The notes beneath the pieces were generated by a model, which saw only the letters and a program-made list of their open reading frames with translations, was not told the DNA's origin and ran no database searches. A stretch of 64,000 nt of DNA, from assembly GCF_025502585.1 (NCBI RefSeq), contig NZ_CP106679.1:248001-312000 (forward strand), written 5' to 3'. Made by a program: the position numbers and the translations under genes. The stretch comes from Reichenbachiella agarivorans (GTDB lineage: Bacteria; Bacteroidota; Bacteroidia; Cytophagales; Cyclobacteriaceae). This document shows positions 51,138 to 64,000 of this stretch, piece by piece; position 1 is the first letter of the stretch, and every line of letters starts with the position of its first letter.

Positions 51138-52781
51138 CTACCAAAAGTCATTGCCTTTCTCAACCTGCATGTCATTGTATTTTTGGATAAAAAGGCTATC
51201 CAATTCTGGAGAATCTTTGTACTTGCTACGTAACTCTGTCAACTTGATTTGGAGTTCTTTCACTACATCTGCATAAGCTGGGTCGTCATAGACATTGTTC
51301 ATTTCATTAGGATCATCGAGGCGATCATAAAGCTCCCATTCATCAATATCGTAGTAGAAGTGCACCAATTTATATTCCTTGGTCACGATACCATAGTGTC
51401 GCTTGACCATGTGTACGCTAGGGTATTCATAGTAATGATAGTACACAGCCTCCCGATCCCACTGCTCTTTGTGGCCTGTGAGCAGAGGCATCAGACTCTC
51501 GCCCTGCATGTCACTAGGCGCAGAGATACCAGCTGCCTCCAATAGTGTCTGCGCAAAATCTAGATTTTGCACCATTTCGTTTTCAACCGTGCCTGCAGCG
51601 ACTTTGTCAGGCCATCTGACCATCAAGGGTGTTTTGAATGACTCGTCGTAGATAAAACGCTTGTCAAACCAACCATGATCACCCAAATAAAAACCTTGGT
51701 CGGAAGTATAAACCACAATGGTATTTTCAGCCAACCCGCTTTCGTCGAGGTAGTCCAACACCCGTCCTACATTGTCATCCACAGAAGAGATGCAGGCCAA
51801 ATAGTCTTGCATATAGCGCTGATATTTCCATCTCATTTTTTCCTCCTCAGTCATCATGGGCCAGTGCTGCTCAAAGTAGTCATTGATCGAGTCCAACACG
51901 ACATTATATTGTGCCTTTTGTTCATCTGTCGCTCGTCCAAATGGTCCATAAAATCCATTTTCGAACTCTTCGACCTTAGGCGTGACTTTATCTCCCATTT
52001 TCTCAAGGAGTTCGGGTCGGATTTTGCTATCATGGCTATACATCATGTGCGTCAATAGATTCATCTCCGCAGTCTTGGCTGCCGTTCCTCTATTTTGATA
52101 GTCATCAAACAATGTCTCTGGTTCGGGGAACTGTTTTTTGGTAAACTCCGCAAACTTATCAGGTCTTGGCCACCATGGGCGATGTGGAGCCTTGTGCATG
52201 TACATCATCATAAATGGCTTGTCTGGATCACGATCTTCCTTGAGCCAATTAAGTGTAAGATCAGTGATCACATCGGTCACATAGCCCATGATAGTCGTAT
52301 CTCCGCGTGGCGTATCAAAATCTGGGTTGAGGTAATAGCCTTGACCTGGAAGGATCATGAATTCATCCGCACCTTTAGGGTTGTTGCCAAAATGCAACTT
52401 GCCAAACATGGCAGTCTGGTAACCATTGGCTTGAAAAATCTGAGGAAAAGTAACCTGTGTAGTATCAAATGGCATCAAATTGTCGATCTTCCCATTGATG
52501 TGTGTATGCTTGCCCGTCAGAATCGTAGCACGAGATGGTGCGCATATCGAGTTGGACACACAGGCATTGGTAAACAACATCCCCTCATCCGCAATCCTAT
52601 CTATGTTTGGTGTCTGGAGCAGCTCACTACCGTAGGCACTGATAGCCTGATAGGCGTGATCATCTGACATAATAAAAAGAATGTTGGGTCTGGTCTCCTT
52701 TGTCTTTTCAGTTTGTTTGCAACCAAAAAGAATAGAAAGGGTGAACAAAAATAGGATCTGTGATTTAAGCATTTTTATCAA
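51138..52781 (-). CDS. Cys-type sulfatase, lipoprotein
   Basis: 547 aa. Lipobox LFGC at residues 18-21 marks an envelope lipoprotein. Metal Asp40-Asp41 in FIMSDDHAYQ; the formylglycine-forming Cys80 in CAPSRATILTG; YTSDQGFYLGDHGWFDKR is the second metal site. Removes sulfate esters from a polysaccharide or its oligosaccharides. It is the last gene of a minus-strand run with a hydrolase, beta-helix and heparinase-like genes. It needs maturation by an anSME or FGE not seen in the window. Confidence 0.9.
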   Translation of the reverse strand: MIKMLKSQILFLFTLSILFGCKQTEKTKETRPNILFIMSDDHAYQAISAYGSELLQTPNIDRIADEGMLFTNACVSNSICAPSRATILTGKHTHINGKIDNLMPFDTTQVTFPQIFQANGYQTAMFGKLHFGNNPKGADEFMILPGQGYYLNPDFDTPRGDTTIMGYVTDVITDLTLNWLKEDRDPDKPFMMMYMHKAPHRPWWPRPDKFAEFTKKQFPEPETLFDDYQNRGTAAKTAEMNLLTHMMYSHDSKIRPELLEKMGDKVTPKVEEFENGFYGPFGRATDEQKAQYNVVLDSINDYFEQHWPMMTEEEKMRWKYQRYMQDYLACISSVDDNVGRVLDYLDESGLAENTIVVYTSDQGFYLGDHGWFDKRFIYDESFKTPLMVRWPDKVAAGTVENEMVQNLDFAQTLLEAAGISAPSDMQGESLMPLLTGHKEQWDREAVYYHYYEYPSVHMVKRHYGIVTKEYKLVHFYYDIDEWELYDRLDDPNEMNNVYDDPAYADVVKELQIKLTELRSKYKDSPELDSLFIQKYNDMQVEKGNDFW

Positions 52782-52805: not shown

Positions 52806-53714
52806 CTATAGTTTGTTTTTTGCCTCGATGTAATTCAATGAAACCAAAAACAAATCAGTCTCTCGAAGGGTTTCTTCATAAAACACACCTTCATATTTAT
52901 AATTATTGAAGAACCCATGACCTGCATTGTCATAAAGATACAATTCACACCGCGCACCTGCGTCATGCATTTTTTCATTGTAATTTTCAGCAATACTGAC
53001 AGGGATCAAATGATCTTCTCTTCCCAAAAAAATAATGGTAGGAGGGGCTAGTTTAGTAATGTTGTGCGCAGGGGAAATCTCACGCCAGCGATCCCCCATC
53101 CGTGCATGCTCGAACCCCTCTGGGCCATTGTCAAACACAGGATTGAACAATACAAGGGCATTGGCCTTGGAACTAATACTCAAATCCTCGCCAGCTTCAT
53201 CCAAGCCTGGCAAAACCCCACAGGCAGCAGCTAAGTGTCCTCCAGCAGAGCCTCCAGATGCAACTATCCTTTTCGTGTCAATATTCAATTGCTTGGCATT
53301 GCTCCGTAGAAAGCGAATTGCCGACTTGGCATCTGCCACCGACTCATATGGTGTCGTCTGGTGTCTAGACTTGACACGGTAATCTACCAAAACCGTAATC
53401 ATCCCTCTAGAAGCAAAATATTCGGCCTGAGGCTGAAATTGATCAATAGTCCCACCATTCCATCCGCCACCAAAGTAGAATACAATCGCTGGATATTTTC
53501 TCGCTTTTTTGAAATCAGGAGGGAATTTCACCCGCATATTCAAGGTATCTCCCTTGATTACCTTGTATGTCAACTCTGTCACACCCTGGTGGTCGGCAAT
53601 AAGCACATGATCCTTCAGATCCTGTGCACGTGTTGTGAACAAAATACTAGTTAACAATAGACATACGGTTGCTACCTTTTTGATTTGACCAACAAGCTCA
53701 TTGACTAAAATCAT
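52806..53714 (-). CDS. Alpha/beta hydrolase (carbohydrate-esterase-like)
   Basis: 302 aa with a signal peptide (SILFTTRAQ). Nucleophile Ser156 in VASGGSAGGH, Asp234 in GREDHLIPVS and His266 in NAGHGFF form the triad; the oxyanion strand FYFGGGWNGG replaces the usual HGGG. Resembles BD-FAE/acetyl-xylan-esterase-like carboxylesterases. Its ATG overlaps the beta-helix stop by 4 bases, so it is coupled to that gene and probably removes ester groups from the same glycan. Confidence 0.85.
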   Translation of the reverse strand: MILVNELVGQIKKVATVCLLLTSILFTTRAQDLKDHVLIADHQGVTELTYKVIKGDTLNMRVKFPPDFKKARKYPAIVFYFGGGWNGGTIDQFQPQAEYFASRGMITVLVDYRVKSRHQTTPYESVADAKSAIRFLRSNAKQLNIDTKRIVASGGSAGGHLAAACGVLPGLDEAGEDLSISSKANALVLFNPVFDNGPEGFEHARMGDRWREISPAHNITKLAPPTIIFLGREDHLIPVSIAENYNEKMHDAGARCELYLYDNAGHGFFNNYKYEGVFYEETLRETDLFLVSLNYIEAKNKL

Positions 53715-55072
53715 CTCTTTACAATTTTGATTTGGCTTCCCTTGTTTTCTAATACTTCCCCATCTGTTTTGATTTCACAGTCTCTTGCTTTTGCTCCGAT
53801 GACTATGGGCATTCCAGTCTCGTTTCTGAATTTCAGTCCGACAGTTTCTCCTTCATCAAAAGGTGACATGGATTCTCCATGCATGGGATGTGTGTAGCCT
53901 ATGAGAATTGGGAGGGCTGTGGTTCTCTTATTTCCATTTTGAGATTTCAATACAATTTTATTGTTGCTGCCCTGAATGGTCACCAACGCATGCACTAGGC
54001 GATCTGATTCTGCAGGATCAACAGTCAATTCTACATTTACATTGCTACCTTCTACAAACATGAGAGGGCCATAATTGGCATCTCCACTGCAATTTTTGAC
54101 TATGGCGTCATCACCTATCCAATAGGCACGTTCTGTACCTATTGTCTTACAGTTTTCAAGACGTATGCCTTCATTTGTGCGTAATTCAAACCCTGCTCTG
54201 GTGTTCTTTGCCGTACAATTTTTAAAATGAATATTTTTTATTTGTCCATAGGTGCGAAAACCATCTTCACACAGAGATTTCATGTAACCCGATGTGACTA
54301 CATACTCTCCATCACGGTTTTGAGTCCATGTACGAAAGTCTGCATCAAATGCTGGCCCTGAGGTTTCTGCAAGTATATCATCTGTAGAGCGTACTTCTCC
54401 TTCGGCATAGCAATCTTCGAAGTAGACATTCTCAGCATCCTTTTGCACGAAAAAACAATGCCCAAAAGAACGATTGTACAATTTACATTGATAGAGTTTC
54501 GTATCACTACCAGTAACCAAAAGGCCACTGTGTTTTTGATGCCGAATGACCGTTTCACTCGCTTTTCCTTTTCCAAACAAATCACCATAGCCATAAGGAT
54601 ACGAGCCTGAAACATAGATGGTGATATTTTTCAACACATTGCCTCTTCCTGCAACTTGAAGTACAGTTCCTCCAGGTGAGGTGTCCTCACCCACACATCG
54701 TATGGTCAATCCAGCAAAGGAATTATTACTACCCATGATCAGGAATTCATCACTATGAATGGGAGGATTTAATGCAATACGTAATTCGGTGTCTACGATG
54801 ATTTCCACCCCTTCCAAATTGAAGATATTGTCGTTACCGCTAAAATTGATATACTGAAATTGTTTGCGGTCATGACGAATCCGCATAGAATCCATTGTCA
54901 AATAGTCTGTGAGCGGGTAGATACCAGCTTGGAGGGTAACCACATTTCCACTTTCAGAAGCATACTTGGCAAGATCTGCGAGACTGCTCACCTGAATATC
55001 CGCAGCTTGTAGTGCGGTAGTCATCAAGATCAGGCCTACTACCAGTCTATTTTTCAAATTATTCATTCTCAT
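53711..55072 (-). CDS. Right-handed parallel beta-helix protein, candidate polysaccharide enzyme
   Basis: 453 aa with a signal peptide ending LQAAD. The body is a solenoid of short beta repeats (VLKNITIYV, LYQCKLYNRSFGHCFF, VYFEDCYAEGEV, IHFKNCTAKNTRAGF), the pectate-lyase-like fold. It shares a motif set with the 1021-aa protein at 57126: YPYGYGD (158-164), HQKHS (178-182), FGHCFF (203-208), EGEVRSTDD (224-232) and NYGP (333-336). No known lyase signature could be assigned. Between a heparinase-like lyase and an esterase in one operon; probably periplasmic. Confidence 0.72.
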   Translation of the reverse strand: MRMNNLKNRLVVGLILMTTALQAADIQVSSLADLAKYASESGNVVTLQAGIYPLTDYLTMDSMRIRHDRKQFQYINFSGNDNIFNLEGVEIIVDTELRIALNPPIHSDEFLIMGSNNSFAGLTIRCVGEDTSPGGTVLQVAGRGNVLKNITIYVSGSYPYGYGDLFGKGKASETVIRHQKHSGLLVTGSDTKLYQCKLYNRSFGHCFFVQKDAENVYFEDCYAEGEVRSTDDILAETSGPAFDADFRTWTQNRDGEYVVTSGYMKSLCEDGFRTYGQIKNIHFKNCTAKNTRAGFELRTNEGIRLENCKTIGTERAYWIGDDAIVKNCSGDANYGPLMFVEGSNVNVELTVDPAESDRLVHALVTIQGSNNKIVLKSQNGNKRTTALPILIGYTHPMHGESMSPFDEGETVGLKFRNETGMPIVIGAKARDCEIKTDGEVLENKGSQIKIVKR

Positions 55073-55087
55073 CGTTGTATTCTTTCT

Positions 55088-57031
55088 CTACTCCGTTACT
55101 GGATGGTACTGCATGATCAACTTGCCCTTTTTGATTGGTGAAACAAAGTCTATCCCAATCCTATAGGCACGCTTGCCACTGCGCAAATGCTCAACTGGGA
55201 CGATTTCGTCCGATATTTTTAGTTTACCTCCTTTGGCTTTGATGATCACCTCGACCTTTTGCTGAGCCAATTGCAAGATTACTCTGTCGTCATCCATGAT
55301 TTCATAAGGTACATCCACCATGATCGCCGTACCGAAGGCAATGGCTTCCGTGGCACTGAATTCATCGGCAATTGTAATTGTACCATTTCCCTTCCGTTCA
55401 TTTTTCATGCTTCTGGTGAGTGATTGTAGGGACGACACATCGTACGCTGCACTTAGATCCATCACGACTAAATCAGCTTTTTCTGCAAAAGAGCTCTCGA
55501 TGATTTTGCCAGCTGCTTCTCGACCATTGATCTGCAATTGTCCATTGACACGAGGCACAGGATGTCCCCACGAACTACGTGCAGGGTTGTCAGGAGAGAA
55601 AGCTCCAGCAATATAAGACGGTGCGCCTATGTCTCCTGCGATCATATTCTCTCCCAATACAATGACATAACTCCCCACATCGCTGTGGTTGTGGTTCTCA
55701 GCATTGTGACCCGCTTTGATTGATACCGAAAACGGGATAGTCTGCTGCCCGCGAGAGATGACGACTCCATAGTCGTCAAAATAAGTCACTGATTCCTGAG
55801 GTCTGGCTGTTTGGTCGCCTGATATGTACGACACTGAATCGTTCCACTGAATGAGCAATTGCACGGCTTCATCAGGAACAAAAGTTTTGGGCATAGCTGC
55901 ACCGTACTGTTTTGCAGCCATATAATAGGCAAAATTATCATTGTCAGAAGATACCCTGAGGACACCATCTGAATAACGAGGATAAAGACCGTTTTGAATC
56001 TCAAAGTTGGCAGGAAAGTTGGCCACTCGTTGTAATTTCTCTCTGTTGTCAAAAATGAATAGGTCTATTTTCCCATCTGTATAATCATAGAGTATTTGTG
56101 CCAAGTAGAGGTAGTGTCCAAAACCATAATTCCAATAGCCCGTTCCTTCTGAACAATATCCATCCTCACCAAAACCTGACATATAGTATCTCATACTATT
56201 GAGGGCTGCACCTATGGCTGCTGTTCTTTCTTCTTTATTTTGAGACATTACGATTGTTGTGAAAATCGTACCACTGGTGCATACAGAGTTCCAGTTGCTG
56301 GTACTGCGGATCCAAGTATTACTTGCTGGGTTCTCTTCACGACACGAGCTCAAATAGGAATCAATGATGCGCCATTGCAATTGACCTGCTATTTCTGCTC
56401 TCAAAGTATCTGACAGTCTATCTTGGAGCAGGGACTCAGACATGGCCAGTACCTGCCCAAATTTTCTCGCTCCCAAATCAATAGATACTCTCTTCCCTTC
56501 GAGCACACTGTTTTCTTTGTCATCGTGATTGGGGTGCAACCACGATTTCATATCCATGATTGCTCGACTGTAGACTTCAATCTGAGGAACAAACCGTCCT
56601 TTATTTTCCATACACTCTGCGATGACATAGTGCTCTAGTCGATCCATGGTGCGGTAATAGCGTGGCTTGTAGATGCCACGATTTCCTTCCAAATTGGCTC
56701 TTCGGTAGATTGAGTCGGCAATTGGTACTTCTGGTGCTCGGTCTAACAGTGTCTCCGTATGCTCAAGGTATTCTCTTCCCGATTGGCTGGCAGCTCTTTC
56801 ATCCCAATACCCACGATCTGAAATAGGTGGAGATGGACGGTAATTTCCATCAGGGATCAATGGTCTGAGCATGGACAACTGTGCCTCGGAGGGGTAGATA
56901 TTCTCTCCCTTCGTCAAAGCCAAATAATCAGCTATCTTCAATTTGTTGCTTTCATTCCCTGAGGACTGGGCCACAACTTGTGAAGCAAATAATACAAATA
57001 AGTATGCAACGAGTACTTTGATTGATGTCAT
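55088..57031 (-). CDS. Heparinase II/III-family polysaccharide lyase
   Basis: 647 aa with a signal peptide (FASQVVAQ). The N-terminal alpha/alpha toroid carries NWNSVC (246-251) and EGTGYWNYGFGHY (295-307), with Tyr299 as likely catalytic base; the C-terminal beta sandwich starts near 410 and holds HNAENHNHSDVGSY (442-455), the metal-site type motif, and SWGHPVPRVNGQLQ. Beta-elimination of uronate-containing chains is the family reaction; substrate not determined. First gene of the run ending at the sulfatase at 51138. Confidence 0.85.
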   Translation of the reverse strand: MTSIKVLVAYLFVLFASQVVAQSSGNESNKLKIADYLALTKGENIYPSEAQLSMLRPLIPDGNYRPSPPISDRGYWDERAASQSGREYLEHTETLLDRAPEVPIADSIYRRANLEGNRGIYKPRYYRTMDRLEHYVIAECMENKGRFVPQIEVYSRAIMDMKSWLHPNHDDKENSVLEGKRVSIDLGARKFGQVLAMSESLLQDRLSDTLRAEIAGQLQWRIIDSYLSSCREENPASNTWIRSTSNWNSVCTSGTIFTTIVMSQNKEERTAAIGAALNSMRYYMSGFGEDGYCSEGTGYWNYGFGHYLYLAQILYDYTDGKIDLFIFDNREKLQRVANFPANFEIQNGLYPRYSDGVLRVSSDNDNFAYYMAAKQYGAAMPKTFVPDEAVQLLIQWNDSVSYISGDQTARPQESVTYFDDYGVVISRGQQTIPFSVSIKAGHNAENHNHSDVGSYVIVLGENMIAGDIGAPSYIAGAFSPDNPARSSWGHPVPRVNGQLQINGREAAGKIIESSFAEKADLVVMDLSAAYDVSSLQSLTRSMKNERKGNGTITIADEFSATEAIAFGTAIMVDVPYEIMDDDRVILQLAQQKVEVIIKAKGGKLKISDEIVPVEHLRSGKRAYRIGIDFVSPIKKGKLIMQYHPVTE

Positions 57032-57051
57032 CTATATTGGGTTTCGTGATT

Positions 57052-57116
57052 AAAAAAAGCCGAAACAAAGCGAACTTGTCTGCATGAATAGACAGAAACA
57101 CTTTGTATCGGCTTTT
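57052..57116 (-). terminator. Terminator after the 1021-aa beta-helix gene
   Basis: AAAGCCGA and ACAAAG pair with CTTTGT and TCGGCTTT around an inner TGTCT/AGACA stem; seven A on the left give the minus-strand T run. Divides the locus into two transcripts, or attenuates between them. Confidence 0.75.
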
Positions 57117-57125
57117 GTATGTATC

Positions 57126-60100
57126 TTATTTCTTGATAACCTTTACTTGCTTGTAAGCACCTTTCCCACTCAATATGACTACATACATACCTGAGCGTCT
57201 GCTGTCAAAATTGACATTCAATGTTTTAGCATCACTTGGGATTTGATCTCTGTAGACTACTCTACCATCCAGATTGTACATGACCAAATGATCATAAACC
57301 GATACCGGGACGTTCAATGTCAGTTGAGTCGATACAGGGTTTGGATAGGCGATGATTTCCACATCCGATAAATCTGCTGACAAGATTTCTTCATCTATTT
57401 GCAAATTGTCCAAATCTGCGGATTCAAATTTCCACTGCTGATTTTGGTCGGTGACATCTAAACTGCCCAAGAACACCTTGGCTCCATCCGAACGCCCATT
57501 TCCAGCATCGATGACCATATTGTTTCCTCTCTTTTGCAAACGATAGTAACCATCCCCTGCTCCGATTTTTAACCACTGCTGATTGACGTCACTCTCAGCG
57601 CATTCAATCAAAGTCACATTTTGCTCTTCAATATTCTCTGTGCCACCGTGCAGGCAATATTCTGTGCCGTACTTTTGGTATGAAAAGTAACCATCACCAC
57701 GATCGATCTCTGTCCATGTAAGATTCTCATGATTAGCATGTTTTAGCAGACTAATGGCATCACCGGCTTGCACTTCAGCACCGCCATTGATGGCATATAG
57801 CGACGCACTCCGCTTCACCATTTGAAATTCACCCCCACCTACGCTAGGCGTACCTTCGTACACTTCAACTTCGGCCAATGCCAAAGTACCTGTTCCATTT
57901 ATTTGGATTCTGATGATACTTCCTATTGCTCCTTCTGCGTTTATGCTCAGGGTGGCCTGACTCAAAGAAGCAACCGTTTGGCTGTATTTGATTATCCCTG
58001 AGCTTTCTAATACACTCACGTTGAAATTGGCCAATCTTTCACTACAACAATCCGTCCTATTAAAGATTTTGATCTCACCGATGGCATAACTGCCTCCCAA
58101 GTCTACTTGCCACCATGGATAGCTAGAGTTGGCGTTGGTATGCGAAACCGAATTGTCTGCAAACACCCCACTGGTATTGCCATCTACTGCACGAATGGGA
58201 GCGCCATCATAGGCAATAGACGACTGAGTTGCATTGCCTCTGTATGCCAGATTGACTATAGCATCATCAGGAATACCCAGCAAGGCAAGGTTCGTGGTTT
58301 TAGCTACTGTAGACCCCTCGTATGCGACTGTGAATGTCTCATTGCTATTTTTCTCAACATACGCTATGTTGATCAGGTGATCTCCTGCTTCGAGACAGAT
58401 ACTGCCAGTGACCTCTTCAAAAGTAGCAGGTGAATGATTGATTACTTCAATTCCATCAATGGTCAAACGAGAGGCATCATCCGAAGAAATATAAAAATCA
58501 TAGCTCCCCTCCTCCGCTATAGTGATGAAACCATCGAAAACCAACGCATACGTACTCAAATCATCAGTAGCAGCCACATTCAAATCTGCACTCCATCCTG
58601 AAAGAGCGGGAGACAATGAACCAAAATCAGGCAAAGCATCCCAATCTCCTTCGTACAAACTGTAATTGATCCCAGATGTCGCATAGGACGGAGGAGTCAC
58701 GCCAGGCTCATTGACACAGGCCTCTTCGCAGGTTACTACTGTCACATCATTGTCAGTCCCCTCATCTGTAATCAGACCACAGGTAATTCCCGTCACATTG
58801 TAGCTGGCAGATGGTAAATCCATCTCATATCCTGACAAATTGTAAATCGTCATGTCTCTGGCAGTGTGATAGTTTTGTGAAGAAGGTTCTCCACTTAAAA
58901 AACGTTGATTTTGGAGATACCCACCCATTTGTATTTTTAACTCAGGGTTTACATCCGCCTCGTTTCCTCTCAAAACTACTCTGTGTCCACTACCTCCTAT
59001 ATAGGCTACACATTTGCTACCATTGTAATAAGGATCGACCGGAGGGATAATGGTAATATCTGCATTGAAGTTCCTATCATTGTCATAGGTACTTTGATAG
59101 ACAGGACCATAGGCTGCGTCAGCTTTGCAATTCACAACCGAACCAGAAGCCAAAGCATATCCCTGCTCACATCCAATGATTGTACATCCTTCCACATATT
59201 TTGAACCAGTAGCATGAGCCAATGTGATTCCTCCCCTCATGTTCTTGACTGTACAGTTGAGTACTGTCACGTTACTCGTACCTCTTGAATAGTGAACACC
59301 ATCAATTACTGTCTCACCAGCATTGTATGCACGAATACCCTCTTCACCAAGACTCATCATGTGTCCTGGAGGCAAGCGATACCCCCATGTAGTCATAAAA
59401 TCGACCAAATCCGCAGGAGAACCTGTGCCTTCCTCAGCCAACATGTCATCAGTGGATCGTACTTCCCCTTCTACATAGCACCCTTCTATAAGTGGGTTGT
59501 TTGCTGCCTGCATAAAAATACAGTGTCCGTAGGTCCTGTGAATGAATGTACAGTTTTTGACATGATTGGACTCTCCTCTGACTAGACAAGTACTGTGTTT
59601 TTTGTGACCAATGACGTTGCCTGAGCCTCCCTTGCCAAAAGCATCTCCGTACCCATATGGGAAAGAGCCCGTGGATGTGACATGAAAGCCTTCTACCCTA
59701 TTGCTAGCGCCATCAATGACAATGTTGACAGCCCCACTCGTAGGATTATCATCCACTGAACCATCATCAAACAAAGTCAAGTTTTTTAGCACATTGTTGT
59801 TACCTGTAATTTGAACTTCATAAACGTCATAGTTCCCATACGCTCTGAAAACCTCTGTTTTCACCTTGATAGTCACATCGGTAAAATCATAGGTACTGCC
59901 ATTGCCTGATACCAATAGGAGCACTTTGAAATAGGAATTATTTGACTCAGTATAGGTTTGACTCTCAAACAGCTTGTTGGCAACATCCTCTGCAGTAACT
60001 GTATATGTCCCAGGTGCCAACTTCACATGGACATTGCTTTCCTTGAGATAGGGTTGCAATTCACTTAGAGATTGAACCACTGTTTGGGCGTTTAGTGATG

Positions 60101-60191
60101 CTCCCAATGTGATCAAAACTAAAAACAAACCAATCTCACGAATTGTTGCTTTAATAGTAGTTGAAATTGAATGGTAAATTTTTCTTTTCAT
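57126..60191 (-). CDS. Secreted multidomain beta-helix protein with T9SS sorting domain
   Basis: 1021 aa. Signal region to about 35 with an N-terminal extension; right-handed beta-helix about 36-490, with the same motif set as the 453-aa neighbour (FPYGYGD 177-183, HKKHS 196-200, YGHCIF 221-226, EGEVRSTDD 241-249, AYGP 360-363); PA14-like domain about 505-628; F5/8C discoidin-like about 645-778 (RAVDGNTSGVFADN, WWQVDLGG); ricin-type beta-trefoil about 787-922 with two NQQW motifs; and a C-terminal type A sorting domain 943-1021 (IIAYPNPVSTQLTLNV ... GMYVVILSG). Expected to be exported by T9SS to the surface and bind glycan. 69 bases downstream of the sulfatase gene. Confidence 0.85.
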   Translation of the reverse strand: MKRKIYHSISTTIKATIREIGLFLVLITLGASLNAQTVVQSLSELQPYLKESNVHVKLAPGTYTVTAEDVANKLFESQTYTESNNSYFKVLLLVSGNGSTYDFTDVTIKVKTEVFRAYGNYDVYEVQITGNNNVLKNLTLFDDGSVDDNPTSGAVNIVIDGASNRVEGFHVTSTGSFPYGYGDAFGKGGSGNVIGHKKHSTCLVRGESNHVKNCTFIHRTYGHCIFMQAANNPLIEGCYVEGEVRSTDDMLAEEGTGSPADLVDFMTTWGYRLPPGHMMSLGEEGIRAYNAGETVIDGVHYSRGTSNVTVLNCTVKNMRGGITLAHATGSKYVEGCTIIGCEQGYALASGSVVNCKADAAYGPVYQSTYDNDRNFNADITIIPPVDPYYNGSKCVAYIGGSGHRVVLRGNEADVNPELKIQMGGYLQNQRFLSGEPSSQNYHTARDMTIYNLSGYEMDLPSASYNVTGITCGLITDEGTDNDVTVVTCEEACVNEPGVTPPSYATSGINYSLYEGDWDALPDFGSLSPALSGWSADLNVAATDDLSTYALVFDGFITIAEEGSYDFYISSDDASRLTIDGIEVINHSPATFEEVTGSICLEAGDHLINIAYVEKNSNETFTVAYEGSTVAKTTNLALLGIPDDAIVNLAYRGNATQSSIAYDGAPIRAVDGNTSGVFADNSVSHTNANSSYPWWQVDLGGSYAIGEIKIFNRTDCCSERLANFNVSVLESSGIIKYSQTVASLSQATLSINAEGAIGSIIRIQINGTGTLALAEVEVYEGTPSVGGGEFQMVKRSASLYAINGGAEVQAGDAISLLKHANHENLTWTEIDRGDGYFSYQKYGTEYCLHGGTENIEEQNVTLIECAESDVNQQWLKIGAGDGYYRLQKRGNNMVIDAGNGRSDGAKVFLGSLDVTDQNQQWKFESADLDNLQIDEEILSADLSDVEIIAYPNPVSTQLTLNVPVSVYDHLVMYNLDGRVVYRDQIPSDAKTLNVNFDSRRSGMYVVILSGKGAYKQVKVIKK

Positions 60192-60260: not shown

Positions 60261-62090
60261 TTATATCTTTTCTACCTCCACAAAATAGGCCCCCAATTCA
60301 GTCTCATCATCCAAGGTGAACCAAGTCTGAAGTTTGGTATCTCCCGCTTTCAAATCCACAGTAAACTCTACGTATTCCATAGTCCCATCTACTGCCGCAC
60401 TCTCCTCATAGTCTTGTACTTTCACTCTGGCCTGACGGATATCGAGTGCTTTTCCTGGTTTACTTTCTCCCACGCTGGTAGCAGGCAATGCTGGACGTAT
60501 AGCTGCCGAAGCATTGAGTGCAAGATGTGTTTCTACGGGCCATCGGCGCAATCTCAGTTTGTACTGACCACTCTTAGCTACTTTGATCAACCAGTAGCCA
60601 TTGTCAATGTACCCACTGCGTATATGGCGTTGGTGCCAGGGGCTTTCATGCTGGGTGTGCCAGTCATGACAGTACAGTTTTGTGGGATTTTCTGACTCAT
60701 GACCTATGTAGATGTATGGCTGATCTTTGTAGCTCGGAGATATCTCTGCCCACCATTTGTCATAATAGGCCTTGTACTCAGCCACTTTCTCTGGATACTT
60801 CTCGGCGATATTGGTACGCTGCTCTGGATCGGTCTCCAGATTGTATAGCTCCACTCCGTCAATCAGTCTCCACTTGTCCTGCATCAATGATGTCCTGAGC
60901 CATGGCTGAGGCACTTCGGTTCTTTGCGAATTGGTGATTACAATTCTATCCTTAAAATCACCATTGTCACCATGAATCAATGGCACGAGGCTTTGTCCGT
61001 CAAATTTGATATGTTCAGGAACTTCCAATCTCGCCATCTCTACCAATGTAGGCAGGATATCATAGTGAGCCGTCAACTCATTGATATCTTTACCAACAGT
61101 CACACCACCATCTTTCCAATGAATAAAAAGTGGCACTCTGTGACCTCCTTCATATTTACTCGCCTTGATACCACGCATACCTGCATTGTATCCTTTTTTT
61201 ACAAAACCATCTAGCCTGTGACCTTCTACCTTAGCTCCTTGGGCAGTACCATTGTCCGTAGTGAATATCAAGATTGTATTGTCCATGATGCCACTGGTTT
61301 TGAGATAATCCACCAGTTTACCTATGTTTTCGTCCACGTTGGCTATCATCCCATAAAATGCAGCCATAGGTATGCTGTCATTGTCCTCATATTCCTGATA
61401 GGGATCTAAATATTTGTTTTCAACAAAATAGGGAGAATGTGCAGCATTGGTGGGTAAGTAACAGAAGAAAGGTCTGTCCTTGTTTGCATCGATAAATTTG
61501 GTAGCCTCAGCAAACCAAATATCGGTACAATACCCTTCGAATCGTTCCAATTTACCATTATGAATGTAGGTGTCATTGAAGTAATCATTGTCCCAGTAAT
61601 CCATGGTTTGCTCGATACCTCCACCTCCATGTGTCAATACTTCATCAAAGCCTTTGTCTTGAGGTCTGAAAGGATAATTATCACCTTGGTGCCACTTGCC
61701 AAATATCCCTGTAGCATAGCCATTGTTTTTCATGATTTGTGCCACTGTAGTCTCTCGCTCTAAAAGCAAAGAGCGACCATTGACGGTATGCCAAACACCC
61801 GCTCTGTTGGCATGGTGACCTGTAAGCAATGCTGCCCTACTAGGCGCACAAGTAGGGTTGACGTGATAATCGGTAAAACGCACACTCTGGGCATGCAGCT
61901 GATCTATGTTGGGAGTTTGGATGATGGGATTGCCCAAAGCAGCAATGTCACCATATCCTTGATCATCTACCAAGATGAGGATGACATTGGGCTTCTTGAT
62001 TTGTTCTGCCGTTCTCTTTTTTTCAGCCGCACATGACATCAAAATCAAAACGCTCAATGCTATTTCTGTAATCCTAATTAGTCTCTTCAT
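60261..62090 (-). CDS. Cys-type sulfatase, lipoprotein
   Basis: 609 aa from MKRLIRITEIALSVLILMSC; 29 upstream residues in the open frame are not plausible. Lipobox LMSC at residue 20. Metal Asp42-Asp43 in LVDDQGYGD; formylglycine-forming Cys81 in CAPSRAALLTGHH; TTDNGTAQG carries the second metal Asp-Asn. The last 110 or so residues are an extra beta-rich module (KSGQYKLRLRRWP ... LDDETELGAYFVEVEKI) that could bind carbohydrate. Cotranscribed with the downstream beta-helix protein. Divergent in sequence from the first sulfatase, so a different sulfate position is likely. Confidence 0.91.
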   Translation of the reverse strand: MKRLIRITEIALSVLILMSCAAEKKRTAEQIKKPNVILILVDDQGYGDIAALGNPIIQTPNIDQLHAQSVRFTDYHVNPTCAPSRAALLTGHHANRAGVWHTVNGRSLLLERETTVAQIMKNNGYATGIFGKWHQGDNYPFRPQDKGFDEVLTHGGGGIEQTMDYWDNDYFNDTYIHNGKLERFEGYCTDIWFAEATKFIDANKDRPFFCYLPTNAAHSPYFVENKYLDPYQEYEDNDSIPMAAFYGMIANVDENIGKLVDYLKTSGIMDNTILIFTTDNGTAQGAKVEGHRLDGFVKKGYNAGMRGIKASKYEGGHRVPLFIHWKDGGVTVGKDINELTAHYDILPTLVEMARLEVPEHIKFDGQSLVPLIHGDNGDFKDRIVITNSQRTEVPQPWLRTSLMQDKWRLIDGVELYNLETDPEQRTNIAEKYPEKVAEYKAYYDKWWAEISPSYKDQPYIYIGHESENPTKLYCHDWHTQHESPWHQRHIRSGYIDNGYWLIKVAKSGQYKLRLRRWPVETHLALNASAAIRPALPATSVGESKPGKALDIRQARVKVQDYEESAAVDGTMEYVEFTVDLKAGDTKLQTWFTLDDETELGAYFVEVEKI

Positions 62091-62415
62091 TGCTATCCAA
62101 TCACCTATTGTTCCCCAATCTGACCTTTCGACGCTACCATGCTTATAAAATTTTCGAAAAGTCCTCGTTGATATCATTCAGAATAATTGAATCCACTCTA
62201 TACCCTGACTGATTCCCTTCTGATTTAATATCCTAGCAAAACTCAATAACCACCAATACATTCAGTATCAACTATGGTTCAGAAACTATAAAAAATGAGT
62301 CTAGTTAACCACAAGCTCTTCTTTTTCATTTAATTACTCAACTCTTCTCAGGTACTTTTACTTCGTCTTCAAGTCGGTCAATTACAGCTTGGTGGTTTAG
62401 TTATTTTCATAAGCA
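62091..62415. other. Intergenic region before the sulfatase gene
   Basis: 325 bases with no credible gene. Probably holds the sulfatase promoter and the 3' end of the lyase transcript; no clear terminator or operator seen. Confidence 0.4.
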
Positions 62416-64000
62416 TTACTTCGTCTGTTCCTCTCTGATCATTTTCCCGTTTTTCAGTTCTCTGACGAATACCTCTATCGTGCCATCTTGACTATCTAGT
62501 TGCTCGATTTTAATTTCCTGTACTCGTCCATCGGTCAGGGTCACAACCAACTCATTTTCATTTTTGGCTACCACTGATTTGATCATTGATTTGGTTTCGT
62601 AGGGCTCGATCACAGACAAGTATCTGGCTTGTGTCCCTTTGCTGCGTACAGCCATGGATTTGAGACGTGAAGACTCATCTCCGAGCGGGAAGTCTCCTCC
62701 TATTTTGGCCTCAAAGCGCAGGACATCCATCCCATCGAGATCAACAGTGATTTTTGCCAGTTCCTCGTTATTTTCTGGCATAGCGGGTAGGGACTTCTCC
62801 ATCGGCTCACCTGCTATTTTGATCGGTCCCCCATAGTAATCCTTTCCTTTGTTTTCGGGAATCAACACATTTTCATATTTAACTGGAAGTGAAGAAAGAT
62901 AGACGGTTGATCCATTCTTTAGCACCAGCTTTGCATCTCCCCAGAAGATGGTGTTGTTGCGAATCTTACCTGGTGTCATGGTAGTCAGTTCTAATTTGCT
63001 CTTTCCTGAGATGTCTAGAGATATAGTTTTACTTCCCAAAATCCAAGCTCCAGTGCTATCGCTCAGGATCTGTTGATCATCTACACTGACAGTGTACCAT
63101 AGTTTTTTGTTTACATAAAAACCCTCCGTAGAAGTTCCAATCATTAATTCTGATTTCGGTGGCCAAGCATTGAATACATCAATTTTTAGCGGACCATCTA
63201 GGCTATACGGCAATCTCACTCCTTCATTGTCACAACCTTCTCCCCAGCACATTTCGAATTGGGTGCGAGAAGTTCCCTCCACTTCGTACCAGTTGCAATC
63301 TGTGATGAACTGCGCACTACCGATCGGATCAGTATTCATCTGGTTGGTATGCTTGACCAATTCCACTTTGTCTGCTTTGATTCCTTTGAACCCCTTTGAT
63401 TGAAACATCCAGTCAAATTCATGTTCATTTTCACCATTCAAGTAATCTGCTAATACAATGTAATCGTCCATTACAACCATCGCTCTGCGCTGCAACACTG
63501 GTTCAGTAAACTCCGTCACTTCACCAAATGCAGGCTGAATCGCTGGAAGGTCAATGGTCCGACTTTCGTCCCACATTTTTTCGGCAAAAGTCTGTCTATC
63601 GTTTGGGATCCCTCCATATGGTGGGTGGCTCCATTTTGAATTGGTTTCTATCGCAGTAGCTTGCATCATATCTCCTGTATGAAACAAGAGTCGTTTGTTT
63701 TCTACTGGCTGTTGCATTTTTTGATCCACTACTACCATGTTTTTGTTGATGGATACCTGTTTCCAGAATTTGTAGAGATAGCTCTGGTATCCATACCAAA
63801 ACATCAAGGTTCCATAAAAACTACGTCCATAGCGACTCATATGCACCAAATCGGTACGGTCAAAGTGTCCATGGTATCCTCCATGTGAGCCGTAGTGTAG
63901 AGCAGCTTGAATTTGCTCGGACTGCTGCCTGCCAGCCGTCTGTGAACGCAATTGTACAATGCCCATGTTGTCAGCATAGGCCGAAACTTTCATCTTCTCT
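62416..64000 (-). CDS. Heparinase II/III-like polysaccharide lyase, N terminus beyond window
   Basis: The C-terminal 528 or so residues of a larger protein; the frame stays open to the right edge, so the methionine at 63993 is internal. LHYGSHGGYHGHFDRTDLVHMSRYGRSF carries the His-rich, metal-type motif of the C-terminal half of heparinase II/III-type lyases; it is followed by a long beta-sandwich region (VVMDDYIVLADYLNGENEHEFDW). The toroid domain should lie outside. No resemblance in length pattern to the 647-aa lyase beyond the family fold. Substrate probably the same acidic, sulfated glycan. Confidence 0.75.
   Translation of the reverse strand, partial: EKMKVSAYADNMGIVQLRSQTAGRQQSEQIQAALHYGSHGGYHGHFDRTDLVHMSRYGRSFYGTLMFWYGYQSYLYKFWKQVSINKNMVVVDQKMQQPVENKRLLFHTGDMMQATAIETNSKWSHPPYGGIPNDRQTFAEKMWDESRTIDLPAIQPAFGEVTEFTEPVLQRRAMVVMDDYIVLADYLNGENEHEFDWMFQSKGFKGIKADKVELVKHTNQMNTDPIGSAQFITDCNWYEVEGTSRTQFEMCWGEGCDNEGVRLPYSLDGPLKIDVFNAWPPKSELMIGTSTEGFYVNKKLWYTVSVDDQQILSDSTGAWILGSKTISLDISGKSKLELTTMTPGKIRNNTIFWGDAKLVLKNGSTVYLSSLPVKYENVLIPENKGKDYYGGPIKIAGEPMEKSLPAMPENNEELAKITVDLDGMDVLRFEAKIGGDFPLGDESSRLKSMAVRSKGTQARYLSVIEPYETKSMIKSVVAKNENELVVTLTDGRVQEIKIEQLDSQDGTIEVFVRELKNGKMIREEQTK

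Follow-up and report, generated by a model that had tools for sequence, protein, structure and literature searches.

The window, the whole stretch of 64,000 nucleotides analysed from Reichenbachiella agarivorans, covers positions 248001-312000 of the genome, which is one contig of 4.47 Mb. An earlier note on this DNA had described two open reading frames (ORFs) encoding related beta-helix proteins of 453 and 1021 aa, and both were found to be present on the minus strand, surrounded by genes for carbohydrate-active enzymes. The features of this part of the window are as follows:

51138..52781, minus strand: S1-type sulfatase (PF00884, E 4e-56; best match 5g2v, an N-acetylglucosamine-6-sulfatase)
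52806..53714, minus strand: BD-FAE-type carbohydrate esterase (PF20434, E 9e-29)
53711-55072, minus strand: 453-aa ORF, by sequence a predicted lyase of the FdlA family (clade B1)
55088..57031, minus strand: 647-aa heparinase II/III-type protein, PL33-like, the second predicted lyase of the operon (8r6z, E 3e-35)
57126-60191, minus strand: 1021-aa ORF, by sequence a predicted FdlA-type lyase with accessory domains
57849..58253, minus strand: F5/8 type C module of the 1021-aa protein, resembling fucose-binding fucolectins (FBP32, E 7e-26; fucolectin-related 2j1r, E 1e-22)
about 60104-58725, minus strand: catalytic beta-helix of the 1021-aa protein (residues 30-489; FdlA match)
60261..62177, minus strand: S1-type sulfatase (PF00884, E 5e-61; best matches carrageenan sulfatases)
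62416..63993, continuing past the window end, minus strand: C-terminal portion of an alginate-lyase-domain/NPCBM protein with a total length of 1175 aa (PF05426, E 3e-5; PF08305)

These genes belong to a fucoidan cluster of approximately 74 kb (about 299 to 373 kb on the contig), which extends past the right edge of the window. The cluster features five S1 sulfatases, as called from Pfam and BLAST matches, and glycosidases assigned to GH95, GH31, GH29, GH39, GH30, GH141-like, GH28-like and GH88, with GH95 and GH29 representing fucosidases. It also encodes a ROK kinase, an MFS sugar transporter, SusC, SusD and a hybrid two-component regulator (HTCS), together with several heparinase- or alginate-lyase-type proteins. 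One of the latter is the PL33-like protein, whose gene lies between the two Fdl genes and is unrelated to them. An L-fucose operon was also identified, in which FucP and L-fucose dehydrogenase scored above the curated cut-offs and a fuconolactonase-like protein scored below its cut-off. In other marine Bacteroidota, the GH39, GH28, GH31, GH95 and sulfatase neighbours of the orthologues are kept.

Several further cluster members deserve mention. PL33, represented by structure 8r6z (PMC11848413), has so far been associated with glycosaminoglycans and gellan as substrates, and the protein encoded at 55088-57031 may have a new specificity, given its position in a fucoidan locus. Two alginate-lyase-domain paralogues of approximately 1170 aa are present, one lying partly in the window (62416-63993, on to G000:C1:313943) and one at G000:C1:318326-321817; orthologues of this pair with 71-76% identity adjoin Fdl genes in other marine Bacteroidota. 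The proteins encoded at G000:C1:329139-331856 (905 aa) and G000:C1:372500-373642 (380 aa) had no Pfam match and may represent as yet unknown enzymes or binding proteins for glycans, and a GH141-like beta-helix protein with a C-terminal PDZ domain (G000:C1:367879-370299) looks odd in a glycan locus.

Judged by their sequences, the 453-aa and 1021-aa proteins are homologous. They could be aligned over 400 aa with 34% identity (E 7e-51), and their local alignment score of 460 compares with a mean of 41 (sd 6, maximum 73) for shuffled controls. Six motifs had been proposed to be shared in the same order and spacing. Each occurs once per protein and the order is indeed the same, the spacing being similar rather than identical: in the 453-aa protein, YGYGDLFGKG starts at residue 160, HQKHS at 178, GHCFF at 204, EGEVRSTDDILAE at 224, SLCEDGFRTY at 266 and YGP at 334, the corresponding positions in the 1021-aa protein being 179, 196, 222, 241, 280 and 361.

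A sequence search of solved structures revealed FdlA as a clear match for both proteins. FdlA, from Flavobacterium sp. SA-0082, is a lyase of fucoidan (fucoglucuronomannan) that has been characterised biochemically and, in 2022, by crystallography, with nine structures (PDB 7XZF and mutants) and a series of single mutants; it was called metal-independent and a potential new family (PMC9410043). The catalytic domain of the 1021-aa protein (residues 30-489) matched FdlA with E 1e-163 and 58.9% identity over 440 aa, and the 453-aa protein (residues 27-430) with E 2e-44 and 34.8% identity over 402 residues, the similarity spanning the whole catalytic domain in both cases. The earlier view that no known lyase signature is recognisable in this pair is thus not supported, and of the proposed uncharacterised polysaccharide-active family, the polysaccharide-active part is supported by the homology to FdlA; the family itself was already described. 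No numbered CAZy PL family was found for FdlA in the literature, and Pfam and NCBIfam contain no family-specific model, so that the catalytic part receives only the generic Beta_helix assignment. A SefD match from the same Pfam/NCBIfam search was rejected as spurious.

Mutational data for FdlA allowed the shared motifs to be interpreted. Near-total loss of activity was reported for D137A, K141A, H176A, F179A, E236A, R240A, Y242A and Y242F, and little effect for N243A, R272A and Y322A (PMC9410043). The numbering is fixed by the crystal chain of the Y242F mutant (7XZA), whose phenylalanine aligns with the tyrosine of SLxExGxRxY, and a single offset accommodates all eleven mutated residues in the alignment. 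D137 and K141 fall into YGYGDxFGKG, H176 and F179 into GHxxF, and E236, R240 and Y242 into SLxExGxRxY, which identifies these three motifs as the known active site. All seven essential residues are kept in the 453-aa protein (D164, K168, H205, F208, E269, R273 and Y275) as well as in the 1021-aa protein (D183, K187, H223, F226, E283, R287 and Y289). The charged residues shared by the pair, which had been suspected to be catalytic, hence are active-site residues of a polysaccharide lyase with a beta-helix fold. The pocket residues N243, H279 and Y322 of FdlA are retained in the 1021-aa protein and replaced by G276, T299 and G342 in the 453-aa protein. FdlA mutants at these pocket positions stay largely active; the positions are hence not essential in FdlA and the changes not disqualifying, and they indicate that the substrate of the 453-aa protein may differ from that of FdlA.

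The structural prediction, proposed as a check in the earlier note, agreed with these results. An AlphaFold2 model of the 453-aa protein, computed with 51 relatives, reached a pLDDT of 93.5 and retrieved FdlA chains in the first ranks of a Foldseek search (best E 7e-28), the PL6 lyases following at a wide distance (about 1e-5). In VIA-align, 410 residues of the model superposed on the nine FdlA entries, with Z scores between 46.5 and 46.8 and rmsd values of 2.1-2.3 (Z 46.5 and rmsd 2.2 for 7XZF). The placement of the 453-aa residues in the cleft was taken from the superposition on FdlA, not from measured distances. Accordingly modelled, the 453-aa protein has the FdlA beta-helix fold, and for the 1021-aa domain this fold is predicted from 59% identity.

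AlgE4 was the next-best fold after FdlA for this model (Z 29.2). AlgE4 and AlgE6 are epimerases (Z 29), and epimerase and lyase chemistry have a C5 deprotonation step in common, so the 453-aa protein might be a C5-epimerase-like or a binding-only relative. We regard this as highly improbable in view of the Z gap of 17 to FdlA, and the seven intact essential residues argue against decay or a binding-only function, since decay would not preserve them. For the same reason, the 453-aa protein was rejected as a decayed copy.

The mode of cleavage by FdlA has been disputed: FdlA and FdlB were reported to depolymerise several fucoidans, which are not known to hold GlcA-Man, without a rise in A232, and hydrolysis was suggested (PMC6267234). 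If so, the family would comprise endo-hydrolases (fucoidanases) rather than lyases. However, the product of FdlA-NTD was determined by MS as a trisaccharide of unsaturated GlcA, Fuc3S and Man, with the fucose being 3-sulfated, and kinetics were followed at 232 nm (PMC9410043). In addition, the family-invariant residues are mostly basic, accompanied by one Tyr and one Glu, with no obvious hydrolase carboxylate pair, and the invariant Glu hydrogen-bonds an Arg in FdlA (PMC9410043). The GH88 gene in the locus also speaks against hydrolysis, but GH88 could serve other predicted lyases encoded there. Altogether, a family of hydrolases seems very unlikely.

The two proteins differ in their accessory parts. 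Domain searches placed a PA14, an F5/8C and a ricin-B domain C-terminal to the beta-helix of the 1021-aa protein, followed by a T9SS sorting tail, and the F5/8C module contains the pattern H-x27-R-x-D-x4-R, which we take to be the fucolectin binding motif. The 453-aa protein consists of a signal-like (Sec-type) N-terminus and the beta-helix, and neither a lipobox nor a T9SS tail was found in it. The earlier description of one surface-exported copy with three binding modules and one copy devoid of them is therefore supported; as to the periplasm, the 453-aa protein is probably located there, as suggested by its N-terminus.

Considering these results, we propose, with a probability of roughly 0.8, that both proteins are FdlA-family lyases acting on fucoglucuronomannan, the 1021-aa enzyme at the cell surface and the 453-aa enzyme in the envelope, and that their products enter the pathway encoded by the locus. 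Both enzymes would attack sulfated fucoglucuronomannan at its alpha-mannosyl-(1->4)-GlcA linkages through a beta-elimination that needs no metal; the equivalent of Tyr242 would serve as the acid, and a cluster of Arg, His and Lys would neutralise the carboxyl group of the uronate. After export through the type 9 system, the 1021-aa enzyme would be held on the polymer via its fucose/carbohydrate-binding modules and yield unsaturated oligosaccharides for uptake by the SusC/D of the locus. In the cell envelope, the 453-aa enzyme would most likely cut imported or differently substituted glucuronomannan oligosaccharides, and the products would pass to the sulfatases, the GH95/GH29 fucosidases, GH88 and the cytoplasmic L-fucose oxidation route. 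Surface depolymerisation and envelope trimming fit the predicted sorting signals. Moreover, the cluster contains what breakdown of the FdlA trisaccharide needs (sulfatase, fucosidase, unsaturated uronyl hydrolase, mannose kinase and fucose catabolism), which provides context rather than proof.

Relatives were found in Bacteroidota, Verrucomicrobiota and a few other groups, but they are rare: within the genus, 3 of 8 genomes contain them, within the family 10 of 295, and in a sample of the phylum only 1 of 395, the window's own. Among named genomes, that of Reichenbachiella agariperforans is the nearest to show an orthologous arrangement (73% for the 453-aa protein). A strong local expansion was observed in Mariniflexile fucanivorans (G684, the genome of L019), with twelve FdlA-family matches, many of them in tandem.

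In a FastTree phylogeny of 149 domains, rooted at the midpoint and with weak support for some deep forks, FdlA grouped in clade A (69 rows) with the 1021-aa protein and a third paralogue of 719 aa, which is encoded in the same cluster outside the window (359175-361334) and is 67% identical to the 1021-aa domain. The 453-aa protein belongs to subclade B1 (23 proteins) of clade B (53 rows). A recent tandem duplication of the 453-aa/1021-aa pair was rejected in view of their placement in different deep clades. Within B1, a regex search detected a T9SS tail in 0 of 23 proteins, and the 453-aa subfamily apparently is never T9SS-tagged.

What appears to be new here is the assignment of the 453-aa protein to an uncharacterised subfamily that also occurs in non-marine genomes without FdlA-type copies. 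Botryobacter, Desertivirga, Bacteroides, Tannerella and a further member of the Bacteroidales, as well as Maribacter polysaccharolyticus, possess B-type copies but no copy close to FdlA; in the non-marine B1 genomes, the best identity to the 1021-aa domain was 34-40%. As some genomes hold the 453 type without an FdlA-type copy, this type does not merely serve as the step that follows FdlA. In the ORFs scanned around the non-marine B1 genes (five loci, partly MAGs, +-8 kb), GH28, GH88, GH97, GH127, GH43, GH106 and PF05426 proteins were found, among them glycosidases of the plant-gum type, but no sulfatase. At the level of whole genomes, sulfatases occur somewhere in 16 of 16 non-marine genomes, which is hence uninformative about the B1 loci. 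The non-marine neighbours suggest that the GlcA-Man backbone, rather than sulfated fucose, defines the substrate. Plant gums have a backbone of GlcA-Man glucuronomannan, and our guess is that this is the non-marine B1 substrate. The gum backbone is incompletely described in PMC3407523.

An alternative is that the 453-aa protein acts not on the substrate of FdlA but on another GlcA-Man backbone that may be unsulfated, such as occurs in plant gums or in algal chains after desulfation and debranching. Besides the occurrence and the sulfatase-free surroundings of non-marine B1 genes, the replacement of H279 and Y322 in the pocket points in this direction; yet the marine B1 genes sit within sulfatase/fucosidase loci, and the non-marine comparison comprises just the five loci mentioned. 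We consider this alternative conceivable, but not the favoured one.

The 149-domain alignment also bears on the catalytic mechanism. H176, R240, Y242 and R272 are invariant (149/149), E236 is present in 148 of 149, and K151 and R198 are at least 90% conserved within every clade. Clades C (16) and D (7), representing 23 of the 149 domains, carry Leu or Ile at K141 and have lost D137, with H176, R240 and Y242 being retained. The loss of K141 is unambiguous in the motif-anchored alignment, and a clade-C model superposed on FdlA at Z 42. Example loci are L027:6572-7975, L019:6579-7976 and L102:11-1405 for clade C and L030:13079-14524 for clade D; 9 of 16 clade-C members possess a lipobox-like N-terminus. 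In the published FdlA model, Y242 acts as the acid and K141 as the base (PMC9410043). The natural lack of the proposed base in clades C and D means that the K141 assignment needs retesting.

Lyases acting on GlcA proceed by syn elimination, where the roles of base and acid can fall to one and the same tyrosine, as in the PL8 chondroitin AC lyase. A single tyrosine of this kind would explain the pattern of a variable K141 and invariant H176, R240 and Y242; alternatively, clades C and D may perform other chemistry or use other substrates. A more speculative extension, less likely than not as a whole, is that B1 attacks the GlcA-Man backbone common to brown-algal fucoglucuronomannan and land-plant gums, that K141 is not the general base of the family, and that Tyr242 may fill both roles, base and acid, in the elimination of syn type.

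Fucoidan is resistant to degradation and is considered a sink for carbon in the sea, and to our knowledge, very few fucoidan lyases have been described. The locus represents a predicted route from the polymer to L-fucose metabolism, the 1021-aa and 453-aa proteins form a testable surface/periplasm pair, and the alignment of 149 relatives bears on the question of lyase versus hydrolase as well as on the catalytic base of FdlA. With the family already described, the novelty is limited to the uncharacterised 453-aa subfamily and to the catalytic-base point.

Compared with known systems, PL6 alginate and dermatan lyases resemble these proteins in their beta-helix (Foldseek E about 1e-5, VIA Z about 24-26) but differ in sequence (about 10-14% identity), and FdlA is metal-independent and uses other catalytic residues (PMC9410043). 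Membership in PL6, which had been suggested for checking, is not indicated: with the 453-aa protein as query and an E limit of 10, a PDB sequence search returned FdlA, a few spurious chains and no PL6 member, and PL6 structures were retrieved by fold only. No PL31 or PL39 chains occurred among the PDB sequence matches of either protein, and Pfam/NCBIfam gave only the generic Beta_helix; these libraries may have no dedicated models for these two families. The mannuronan C5-epimerases AlgE4 and AlgE6 also share the beta-helix (Z 29), but with 12-14% identity. The closest known system is FdlA itself, which has in common with the 1021-aa protein the beta-helix, the seven essential residues, the F5/8C module and T9SS tail of the full-length enzyme, and the fucoidan context, PA14 and ricin-B being extra in the 1021-aa protein. 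The 453-aa protein, in contrast, is 35% identical to FdlA, has no accessory domains and is altered at N243, H279 and Y322.
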